Source: Chelatococcus asaccharovorans
GTDB taxonomy: Bacteria > Pseudomonadota > Alphaproteobacteria > Rhizobiales > Beijerinckiaceae
Direction: 5' to 3'
Length of the DNA: 64,000 nt
Assembly (NCBI RefSeq): GCF_003201475.1
Contig: NZ_QJJK01000007.1
Span: 1-64,000 of the forward strand
The position numbers and the translations under genes are program-made. The notes beneath the pieces were generated by a model, which worked only from the letters and a program-made list of their open reading frames with translations, did not search any database and was not told the origin of the DNA. Shown here in pieces: positions 47,763 to 49,834 of this stretch (the stretch's first letter is position 1; each line of letters begins with the position of its first letter).

Positions 47763-48569
47763 ATGGTGTCTTTCAGAACTTTCAAATATGCGATCGCGGC
47801 GCTTGCGCTCGGCGCCGCTGCCGTCGGCGCGACGAGCCAGGCCTCTGCCCAGACCGTCCAGGACATCGTCAAGCGCGGCAAGGCGCGCATCGGCGTGCTG
47901 ATCGGCGCTCCGCCCTATGGTTCGGTTGACGCTCAGGGCAACGCGGTTGGTTATGACGCGGATGTCACGGCGATCGTCGGCAAATATCTCGGCGTGCCCG
48001 TCGAAGTCGTGCAGCTGACGCCGCCGTCGCGTATTCCGGCGCTTGAATCCGGCAAGGTGGACTTCCTCATCGCAACGCTGGCCCCGACGCCGGAGCGTGC
48101 GAAATCCGTGCTGTTCACGATCCCCTACAGCATTTTCCAGCCGGGCATCTACGCGCACAAGAACGCGAACATCACCAAGTGGGAAGATCTCAAGGGCAAG
48201 AAGGTCGGCGTCAATCGCGGATCGAGCGTGGAGCACGAGCTGACGAGCCGCGAGAAGGACCTCAATCTGCAGATCATGCGCTTCGAGGATGACGCCACGG
48301 TCATGATGGCGCTGTTCACCGGCCAGGTCGACGCGATCGCCGGTCCGGATGCGCAGGCCAACGCAGCCATGAAGGCGCGCAACGTCACCGACTACGAGCA
48401 AAAGTTCATCTTTGCCCGGCAGCCGAATTCGATGACGGTGCGCAAGGACCAGACAGACCTGCGCGACTGGCTCAACAACGTGATCTACTACATCAAGCTG
48501 AACGGTGAGCTCGATGCCGTGTCCCGCAAGTGGGTCGGCTCCCCGCTGCCCGAGCTGCCGGTGTTCTAG
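47763..48569 (+). CDS. Polar amino-acid-type ABC transporter substrate-binding protein
   Basis: 268 residues from ATG 47763 (AGGGAGAG upstream). Signal peptide ends near QASAQT. RIGVLIGAPPYGSVDAQGNA, GYDADVTAIVGKYLGVPVEV and KVGVNRGSSVEHELTSREKD are SBP family 3 signatures. The periplasmic receptor of the permeases downstream. Its TAG stop overlaps the first CTAG of the repeat array (see 48566-48999). Confidence 0.9.
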   Translation: MVSFRTFKYAIAALALGAAAVGATSQASAQTVQDIVKRGKARIGVLIGAPPYGSVDAQGNAVGYDADVTAIVGKYLGVPVEVVQLTPPSRIPALESGKVDFLIATLAPTPERAKSVLFTIPYSIFQPGIYAHKNANITKWEDLKGKKVGVNRGSSVEHELTSREKDLNLQIMRFEDDATVMMALFTGQVDAIAGPDAQANAAMKARNVTDYEQKFIFARQPNSMTVRKDQTDLRDWLNNVIYYIKLNGELDAVSRKWVGSPLPELPVF

Positions 48570-48672
48570 AGCATTTCTGGTGAACTCCGGTTCACCAGAA
48601 ATGCTGCAGGTCTTTGTTTCTACGCATTTTCTTCACGCGAACCGGTGTCCACTTCGCTCGAAAATGCTCTAG
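48566..48672. repeat. Rhizobiales-type palindromic repeat, copy 1
   Basis: Outer arms CTAGAGCATTT and AAATGCTCTAG bound the 107-nt element; the internal hairpin AGCATTTCTGGTGAAC (48569-48584) pairs with its complement 48589-48604. A homologous copy in opposite orientation lies at 57770-57872. The left end overlaps the SBP stop codon. Confidence 0.8.
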
Positions 48673-48999
48673 TGTCCCGAATCCGAAATTCGTATCATTT
48701 CCGGGAGGCGTCGTTCGAATTTCGGATTCAATCAGGACACTAGTGGAGCGAATTTGACATTTGAGTCCCGCCTGACATCAAGCTCCAGATCAAATGTCAA
48801 ATTCAAAAGCTCCACTAGAACCAATAACTTGCTAGTGGTTTTCTTGACTCCGACATTTGCTCCGAGGCCGGTATCAGGCGGATGCAAATGTCGGAGTCGA
48901 ACCACTAGCAGGCTAATGATTCTCGCGTGGTTTTCGGATTTGAAATTCGCTCATCACCCTCGACCCATTCTGTGACGAATTTCAAATCCACCACGCGAG
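48669..48999. repeat. Array of four double-hairpin palindromic units
   Basis: Each unit has an outer arm of 9-10 nt, an inner arm of 13-15 nt and a 23-27-nt loop. Unit 1: CTAGTGTCC...GGACACTAG, inner AATCCGAAATTCG. Unit 2: CTAGTGGAGC...GCTCCACTAG, inner AATTTGACATTTG. Unit 3: CTAGTGGTT...AACCACTAG, inner GACTCCGACATTTGC. Unit 4: CTCGCGTGG...CCACGCGAG, inner GGATTTGAAATTCG. Units 1 and 2 share a CTAG (48740-48743); units 2-3 and 3-4 are each separated by 13 nt. The 5-6-nt A-rich gap is on the right in units 1 and 2, and T-rich on the left in 3 and 4, so 3 and 4 are inverted. Confidence 0.85.
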
Positions 49000-49132
49000 G
49001 ACAACTGCCATCGACGACCGCTCCGCCTGCGCTGAACAAGCACAGGCGGGGCATTCCAGCCGGTAGGCTTTCGCTCCAGCCGCCTGCCGCCCGCACTGCG
49101 CGCGTTGACGACGAGAGGCCAGTGGCGAAACG

Positions 49133-49834
49133 ATGCAGTATCAATTTCAATTCAACAGTGTTCTGGCCGAATCCGGCTTCATCATGCAGGGCATCCTGCT
49201 GACGATCTATTTGTCGATTGGCTCGATCATCCTCGGATCGATCATCGCGATCCTGTTCTCGGCGCTGCGCGCCAACGGTCCACGCTGGGTCGGCGGCCTC
49301 GTCGACGTCTATGTTGAATTGCTGCGCAACACACCCTTTCTGGTGCAGTTGTTCATCATATTCTTCGGGCTGCCCTCGATCGGCATACGCCTTACGGCCG
49401 ACCAGGCTGCCCTGCTCGCCATGACGCTGAATCTCGCGGCCTATTCCACCGAGATCATCCGCGCCGGCGTCGATTCGATCCACCGCTCGCAGATCGAGGC
49501 GGGCCTCTCGCTCGCTATGACCAAGCGCCAGATCTTCCAGCACGTCATCATCGTGCCGGCGATCGCCAAGGTCTGGCCGGCGCTGTCCAGCCAGTTCGTC
49601 CTGATGCTGCTCGCCTCCTCGATCTGCTCCTTCATTTCGGTGCAGGAACTCTCGGGCGTCACCGCCATCATCGAGCAGCGCACGTTCCGCAGCTTCGAGA
49701 GCTACATCGTCGCCACGCTCCTCTATCTCGTGCTCGCCCTGACCTTGAAGGTCGGGCTCCTCGGCCTCGGGCGGCTCATCTTCCCCCGCGTGTCCGGGCT
49801 CTCCCGTGTCCAGGTCAAGGGAGAGGCAGCATGA
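49133..49834 (+). CDS. Amino-acid ABC transporter permease (HAAT/PAAT type), first
   Basis: 233 residues. Inner-membrane permease with the EAA-type motif RSQIEAGLSLAMTKRQIFQH and YVELLRNTPFLVQLFIIFFG, conserved in the HisQM/GlnP group. It overlaps the second permease by 4 bases (ATGA). The SBP gene ends 564 bases upstream; the gap is occupied by the hairpin array. Confidence 0.9.
   Translation: MQYQFQFNSVLAESGFIMQGILLTIYLSIGSIILGSIIAILFSALRANGPRWVGGLVDVYVELLRNTPFLVQLFIIFFGLPSIGIRLTADQAALLAMTLNLAAYSTEIIRAGVDSIHRSQIEAGLSLAMTKRQIFQHVIIVPAIAKVWPALSSQFVLMLLASSICSFISVQELSGVTAIIEQRTFRSFESYIVATLLYLVLALTLKVGLLGLGRLIFPRVSGLSRVQVKGEAA

Follow-up and report, generated by a model that had tools for sequence, protein, structure and literature searches.

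How did five palindromes come to stand end to end within 434 bases, between two presumed transporter genes? The window analyzed here is a stretch of 64,000 nucleotides from Chelatococcus asaccharovorans (contig NZ_QJJK01000007.1, positions 1 to 64,000). The repeat block at 48566-48999 is intergenic, with what we take to be a binding-protein gene on its left and a presumed permease gene, starting at 49133, on its right. The original prediction described four of the five palindromes as alike in layout and different in sequence, and proposed either a family of mobile palindromes or a structured RNA array. As a whole, the chain is best explained as a nest of short non-coding mobile elements at CTAG, to which we assign a probability of about 0.85. 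The features are as follows, the strand of a hairpin being that on which its bulge lies at the 3′ side.

47763..48569, plus strand: upstream gene, presumably for the binding protein of an ABC transporter (judged from its sequence); its TAG stop (48567-48569) lies inside the first CTAG of the repeat block
48566..48672, plus strand: E0, a distinct repeat of 107 bp that holds two stem-loops and begins and ends with CTAG, that stop codon lying in the left CTAG
48669..48999, minus strand: member of subfamily 1+4, a composite of unit 1, a linker, and unit 4 that runs opposite to 2+3 and is interrupted by 48744-48908
48669..48743, plus strand: unit 1, putative B-type hairpin of 1+4; bulge AATCA at 48730-48734; GANTC at 48679 and 48725
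48740..48908, plus strand: the mobile unit, 2+3, a composite whose 169 bp include the CTAG at either end
48740..48743, plus strand: target copy 1, the CTAG to the left of the inserted 2+3; an uninterrupted copy on contig C5 has one CTAG where the window has two
48740..48818, plus strand: unit 2, hairpin A, with an outer arm of 10 and an inner arm of 15; its bulge, AAAA at 48805-48808, faces the linker; 87.1 bits
48819..48831, plus strand: 13-nt linker AACCAATAACTTG of 2+3, flanked by CTAG on either side
48832..48908, minus strand: unit 3, hairpin B, inverted; its bulge, TTCTT at 48841-48845, faces the linker; GANTC at 48846 and 48894; 87.0 bits
48905..48908, plus strand: target copy 2, the CTAG to the right of the inserted 2+3, on the same basis as the CTAG at 48740
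48909..48921, minus strand: 13-nt linker of 1+4, CAGGCTAATGATT, resembling by eye the reverse complement of the 2+3 linker
48922..48999, minus strand: unit 4, putative A-type hairpin of 1+4; feet CTCG/CGAG; bulge at 48932-48935; 72.1 bits
49133..49834, plus strand: downstream gene, presumably for an ABC transporter permease (judged from its sequence); the gene order is the same in the congener G002

Palindromes of the block

An inverted-repeat search agrees with the original prediction on the five palindromes and the positions of their arms, the fifth palindrome being 48566-48672. The inner arms (48679-48692/48716-48729, 48750-48764/48790-48804, 48846-48860/48884-48898, and 48936-48949/48976-48989) are all 100% complementary. 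Outer arms were found by the same search at 48669-48680/48732-48743 (92%) and at 48740-48749/48809-48818 and 48922-48931/48990-48999 (both 100%), and the outer arm of unit 3 (48832-48840/48900-48908) is visible in the predicted fold. Predicted fold energies lie 5.9 to 10.0 s.d. below those of shuffled sequences in seven of seven foldings, with 0 of 200 shuffles as good in each. The terminator scan, which takes loops of 3-8 only and is therefore blind to these hairpins, returned nothing. The description of the A-rich gap is also correct: units 1 and 2 have it 3′, units 3 and 4 have it 5′. Boundaries marked by CTAG, which had been proposed for most of the chain, occur at six positions in the block (48566, 48669, 48740, 48815, 48832, and 48905), and unit 4 departs from them with the feet CTCG/CGAG. 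The likeness in layout holds for the arms and folds of the four units; the mobile unit, by contrast, is a pair of hairpins and not the single palindrome. What had been overlooked is that units 2 and 3 are one element nested in another, 1+4.

Copies, empty sites, and nesting

Searching the genome of the organism itself (7.25 Mb in 40 contigs) with 48660-49003 as the query yielded at least 43 near-full copies of 48740-48908 at 94-100% identity, the window copy included; this count is a lower bound because 40 of 134 candidates were scored. Each comprises hairpin A, the 13-nt linker, and the inverted hairpin B. CTAG is present at both ends in 27 of 31 distinct 2+3 sites, the remaining four being one base off at one end and none carrying GTAG, and the flanks are unrelated among the 31 sites. 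Counted without its CTAG target copy, the mobile element is 165 bp long, and a CTAG stands at either end. A covariance model was built from 23 hairpins and applied to the same genome, where the best 150 of 2006 candidates were scored and all 150 places were filled. In the regions read, most hairpins are A/B pairs of opposite orientation with starts 90-92 bp apart; most of the 20 regions with apparently unpaired hairpins contain a weaker partner, and three loci (L122, L138, and L139) are deleted or truncated copies. The copy at L122:3042-3155 has lost the B hairpin and kept the linker and the far foot, and at L139:3190-3540 a tandem repeat with a short palindrome (TTGAAGTCGGGCTTGCCCGACTTCAA) adjoins the truncated element. 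A covariance-model search had been suggested as a check; the units are unique neither to this locus nor to this genome.

The whole block is absent in three of three congeners (G001, G002, and G003), which keep the genes. Where the window has GTGTTCTAG followed by the repeats, two congeners have GTGTTCTAACACC and one has GTGTTCTGACC, and the upstream gene ends with TAA in two and with TGA in one. For 12 other insertions in the same genome, the flanks were joined at one CTAG and used as queries against the congeners. Three of the 12 matched across the junction, in eight alignments that each have a four-base slot without the insert; for the remaining nine, no clear junction-spanning match was obtained in the congeners. 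The four bases differ from CTAG in all eight orthologous slots (two CTAT, one TTAT, two CTGA, and three others, at 76-88% identity). The CTAG target duplication, suggested as something to look for at empty sites, is directly seen solely at a paralogous site on contig C5 of the same genome.

This paralogous site (C5:305332-305487) is an uninterrupted 1+4 copy, in which adjoining stretches match units 1 and 4 at 88% and 85%. Its order is unit 1, CTAG, CAAGCTGATGATT, CTCG, and unit 4, with a single CTAG in the place of CTAG-[2+3]-CTAG in the window, and its linker is CAAGCTGATGATT where that of the window 1+4 is CAGGCTAATGATT. The 2+3 copy therefore interrupts an older 1+4 copy at its internal CTAG, and this older copy in turn abuts the unrelated repeat E0. 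By eye, 1+4 appears to be the same kind of element as 2+3 running in the opposite direction, with unit 1 B-like and unit 4 A-like, and such an arrangement would account for the inversion of units 3 and 4 relative to units 1 and 2. Three points speak against this reading: the right foot of 1+4 is CGAG instead of CTAG, the covariance model gives only a weak minus-strand match at unit 1 (26.4 bits, against 54.6 bits for the C5 counterpart), and unit 1 on its own strand is unlisted despite its presence in the model alignment.

A second nest of the same design, 2+3 inside a subfamily X, is found at locus L068. Trinucleotide frequencies predict 80 occurrences of CTAG in the window, where 49 are found, and each 2+3 copy carries four CTAGs and each E0 two; because the word is otherwise scarce, the elements insert into each other. 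At least 6 of the 31 2+3 sites abut or lie within another repeat (L001, L013, L015, L009, and two copies at C1:807629-808070 that flank one E0), hairpins and E0 copies have a common edge at C16:977, C11:71088, and C1:132161, and tandem arrays sharing CTAG are present on contig C23 and, judging by spacing, in Brucella daejeonensis (G067). As the elements themselves carry the target word, chains are expected without any array function. The array on C23 (L065:796-1440) consists of four 2+3-type copies sharing CTAG, of which the first is truncated, and runs to the contig end; the sequence beside it looks like the end of a presumed IS3-type transposase gene. E0 occurs in at least 40 places in the genome at 85-100% identity (40 of 122 candidates scored) as well as in other genomes, and its similarity to units 1-4 is limited to CTAG. 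E0 is possibly RIME-like, of the kind of repeat represented in Rhizobiales by RIME (Osteras 1995) and Bru-RS (Halling and Bricker 1994). The left flank of locus L004 contains a further family of dispersed palindromes (AGCAAGTCCG..CGGACTTGCT), which the congeners match many times.

Relatives in other genomes and the pairing of arms

The spread of the family in Alphaproteobacteria is patchy. All 80 loci listed by a linker-pattern scan are alphaproteobacterial according to their record titles; most belong to Hyphomicrobiales, and the list also includes Sphingomonas, Novosphingobium, a Rhodobacteraceae MAG, and a Telmatospirillum MAG. In viral contigs, the linker pattern had no match. At least 22 of 385 genomes in a class-wide sample (12 candidates scored per genome) and 3 of 60 relatives match, the source genome being included in both counts. 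All 12 hosts tested contain the outer-arm pattern, and none contains its reversed control.

The architecture is kept in other genera. Among 151 testable hairpin halves, 145 reached the cut-off of the bulge test, as did 0 of 453 shuffled hairpins, and a bulge of 3-5 nt faces the linker in 141 of the 145; three lack a bulge and one bears it on the outer side. Accordingly, the outer arms are continuous and the inner side is interrupted. In REP elements, the bulge and the foot tetranucleotide are reported as recognition marks (PMC8266576), and the bulge could here let an enzyme tell inside from outside. The linker slot is kept in plasmid copies of other genera, one of which has one base more. Hairpin B additionally contains GANTC at the base of its inner stem (48846 and 48894 in the window), with at least one site in 51 of 64 unique hairpins and a shuffle mean of 0.31; in hairpin A, the motif is hardly raised (30 of 69 have one; mean 0.43 vs 0.32 shuffled).

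The prediction that a change in one arm is matched in the other was examined in two sets. The first comprises 23 hairpins from the same genome and from plasmids of Martelella, Ochrobactrum, Rhizobium, Aminobacter, and Agrobacterium. In this set, 94.1% of 527 cells are paired, 15 of 24 pairs have changed on both sides, and the covariation score is 0.423, compared with 0.142 in shuffles, 0 of 500 of which reach 0.423. The second set was obtained by scanning named genomes with the linker pattern, which fixes the linker-side feet and leaves the inner arms free. The scan gave 80 loci out of at least 109 stretches; of the 148 hairpins scored, 130 were kept, and four below score 14, those without a linker-side bulge, and exact duplicates were left out. 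The 130 unique hairpins hold 3250 cells, of which 3196 are Watson-Crick, 17 G-T, 17 A-C, and 20 other, so that 98.9% are paired, against 85.4% in shuffles. An excess of compensatory changes over shuffles thus bears out the matched arms, and the constraint acts on DNA and not on RNA, as G-T is no commoner than A-C. Together with the dispersed copies, their exact ends, and the paralogous and orthologous empty sites, these compensatory changes, far above shuffles, support the proposed family of mobile palindromes; the proposed structured RNA array finds no support.

Within the 31 2+3 copies of the source genome, by contrast, stem changes are one-sided in 44 cases and two-sided in 2, and substitutions per site per copy amount to 0.016 in stems and 0.059 elsewhere. 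The simplest reading is that inserted copies decay freely, and that only lineages with matched arms would keep moving. If only copies with well-matched arms move, the arms would evolve pairwise in the moving lineage, and resident copies would decay one arm at a time.

Mode of movement and known repeat families

An enzyme supplied in trans that would recognize the outward CTAG-TGG-NNY-GA arm together with the hairpin is the favored mover, and a YTAR-specific DDE transposase is its main rival. Searches for the gene were as follows. Profile searches found no Y1_Tnp in the source genome or in the genomes G022 and G025, and no DDE_3 (IS630 type) in the source genome. Y1_Tnp is present in 3 of 23 element-bearing genomes searched and in 5 of 14 control genomes. 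The matches listed of an outer-arm pattern search include no longer element that shares these ends, and no transposase was among 25 listed of 79 matched Pfam families near the copies (66 of 213 ORF translations scanned); a transposase gene adjoining some copy is possible. Three candidates were rejected. A DDE_3 mover is discounted by the absence of the gene from the source genome, and a RAYT by the absence of a Y1 gene from that genome and from 20 of 23 hosts. A long insertion sequence between A and B, suggested as an autonomous parent by hairpins near contig ends of G025, was dropped because those contig ends that were read break off within a copy of the 169-bp repeat. A strand-bias test used 60 stretches of 10 kb from contigs C1, C2, C3, C5, and C6, with element orientations from the covariance-model list. 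Of the 53 elements on these five contigs, 22 are on the plus and 31 on the minus strand, and no replication-strand bias was seen, the test being weak. GC skew keeps a single sign throughout C6 (9 of 9 negative) and in 9 of 10 stretches of C2, and the orientations there are 6/7 and 4/3.

The strongest alternative, which is compatible with the nest and which we place somewhat below even odds, is a classical MITE derived from a DDE insertion sequence and duplicating a 4-bp CTAG (YTAR) target, with the outer 24 nt as terminal inverted repeats and the hairpins as by-products. CTAG at both ends with TG...CA just inside, outer arms of A and B that are alike (76% over 29 nt) and bulge-free, and the failure of the weak test to show an orientation bias relative to GC skew, as expected for double-stranded movement, are all consistent with it, as is the target duplication at the paralogous C5 site, although none of the eight orthologous four-base slots is CTAG. 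However, the hairpins, the linker slot, and the side of the bulge are kept in other genera, and movement by terminal repeats would need none of these; furthermore, no parent element was among the outer-arm matches listed, and DDE_3, the sole DDE family searched, is absent from the source genome.

A different explanation of the paired arms, which we consider unlikely, is that arm-to-arm copying by fold-back or template-switch repair, and not selection among copies, keeps them identical. It could draw on three B hairpins from three records (L184, L215, and L228) that are bulge-less, perfect or nearly perfect palindromes, and on two-sided changes that far outnumber G-T cells between lineages. Such copying should nevertheless erase the bulge, which survives in 141 of 145 hairpins, and the one-sided changes persist in resident copies by 44 to 2.

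Movement as folded single strands by a RAYT (Y1 HUH) transposase, as in a REPIN or an IS200/IS605-like element, is distinctly improbable. REPINs and REPs, as described in PMC3116915 and PMC8266576, share with the present element the inverted hairpin pair as the unit, a tetranucleotide foot, a bulge, and tandem clusters, and two inverted hairpins as the moving unit are indeed what we find; the foot is CTAG and not GTAG, the weak test revealed no orientation bias, and the distribution of Y1_Tnp (none in the source genome, G022, or G025; 3 of 23 hosts against 5 of 14 controls) argues against such an enzyme.

A cis-acting structured RNA between two operon genes, with stems kept by transcript selection, is very improbable, and largely refuted as the reason for the paired arms: the predicted folds are very stable, the block lies between genes that we take to be for a binding protein and a permease, and a diverged Aminobacter copy occupies a similar slot, but selection on RNA should favor G-U over A-C and the stems show no such preference (17 each of 3250), no Rfam family reaches the gathering score in the block, the copies are dispersed, and the block is missing in congeners that keep the genes. 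The Aminobacter copy (plasmid pSR3, L061:1501-1670) lies between a substrate-binding gene and ehuC, an operon slot like that of the window. The hairpins between the two transporter genes may also change expression.

The element can be set beside the known repeats. It resembles REPINs and GTAG REPs, as described in PMC3116915, PMC3733652, and PMC8266576, in that an inverted hairpin pair moves as a unit with a foot tetranucleotide, a bulge, and clusters. It differs from these in its CTAG foot and in hairpins of ~78 nt, compared with REPs of 20-40 bp there, and from a REPIN with its RAYT in the lack of a Y1 gene in 20 of 23 hosts. The Caulobacter CcrM-associated intergenic repeats (CIR; Chen and Shapiro 2003, via PMC2229807 and PMC10969869) are likewise alphaproteobacterial and have two long stem-loops with a linker, TA at the termini, and GANTC in one arm, here hairpin B. 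By description, CIR is ~110 bp and the present element 165-169 bp; GANTC is at a terminal loop in CIR and at the inner-stem base here; and the target is CTAG here, with no target duplication known for CIR. Bacterial MITEs such as RUP, Correia/NEMIS, and ERIC (PMC2229807) are similarly short, non-coding, and dispersed, with TA termini and target duplication; these are described as folding end to end, whereas the present element folds as two arms and has no known parent insertion sequence. No description of CTAG-ended two-hairpin repeats was found among the papers listed, most subscription papers being outside the search, so that an earlier description is possible; the word CTAG does not occur in the available part of PMC3733652. 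The literature around this subject also includes PMC1273637, PMC2267715, and PMC2245857. We group the element with the two-arm mobile repeats, as a variant that differs from CIR by description. A tentative and rather doubtful extension is that it represents a class of CTAG-foot, two-hairpin mobile DNA in Alphaproteobacteria, with REPIN-like movement by a non-Y1 enzyme, the bulge as the mark of inside and outside, and arms matched by a DNA mobility step.

In this family, short bacterial repeats offer a natural instance of spread without the usually invoked RAYT gene; the copies are numerous and nearly identical, their ends are exact, empty sites exist, and one structural rule, the bulge towards the linker, is sharp. 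The chained palindromes have a simple explanation, since the element itself carries its target word. Furthermore, GANTC in one hairpin ties the element to the question raised by CIR, namely, why alphaproteobacterial repeats carry a cell-cycle methylation site.
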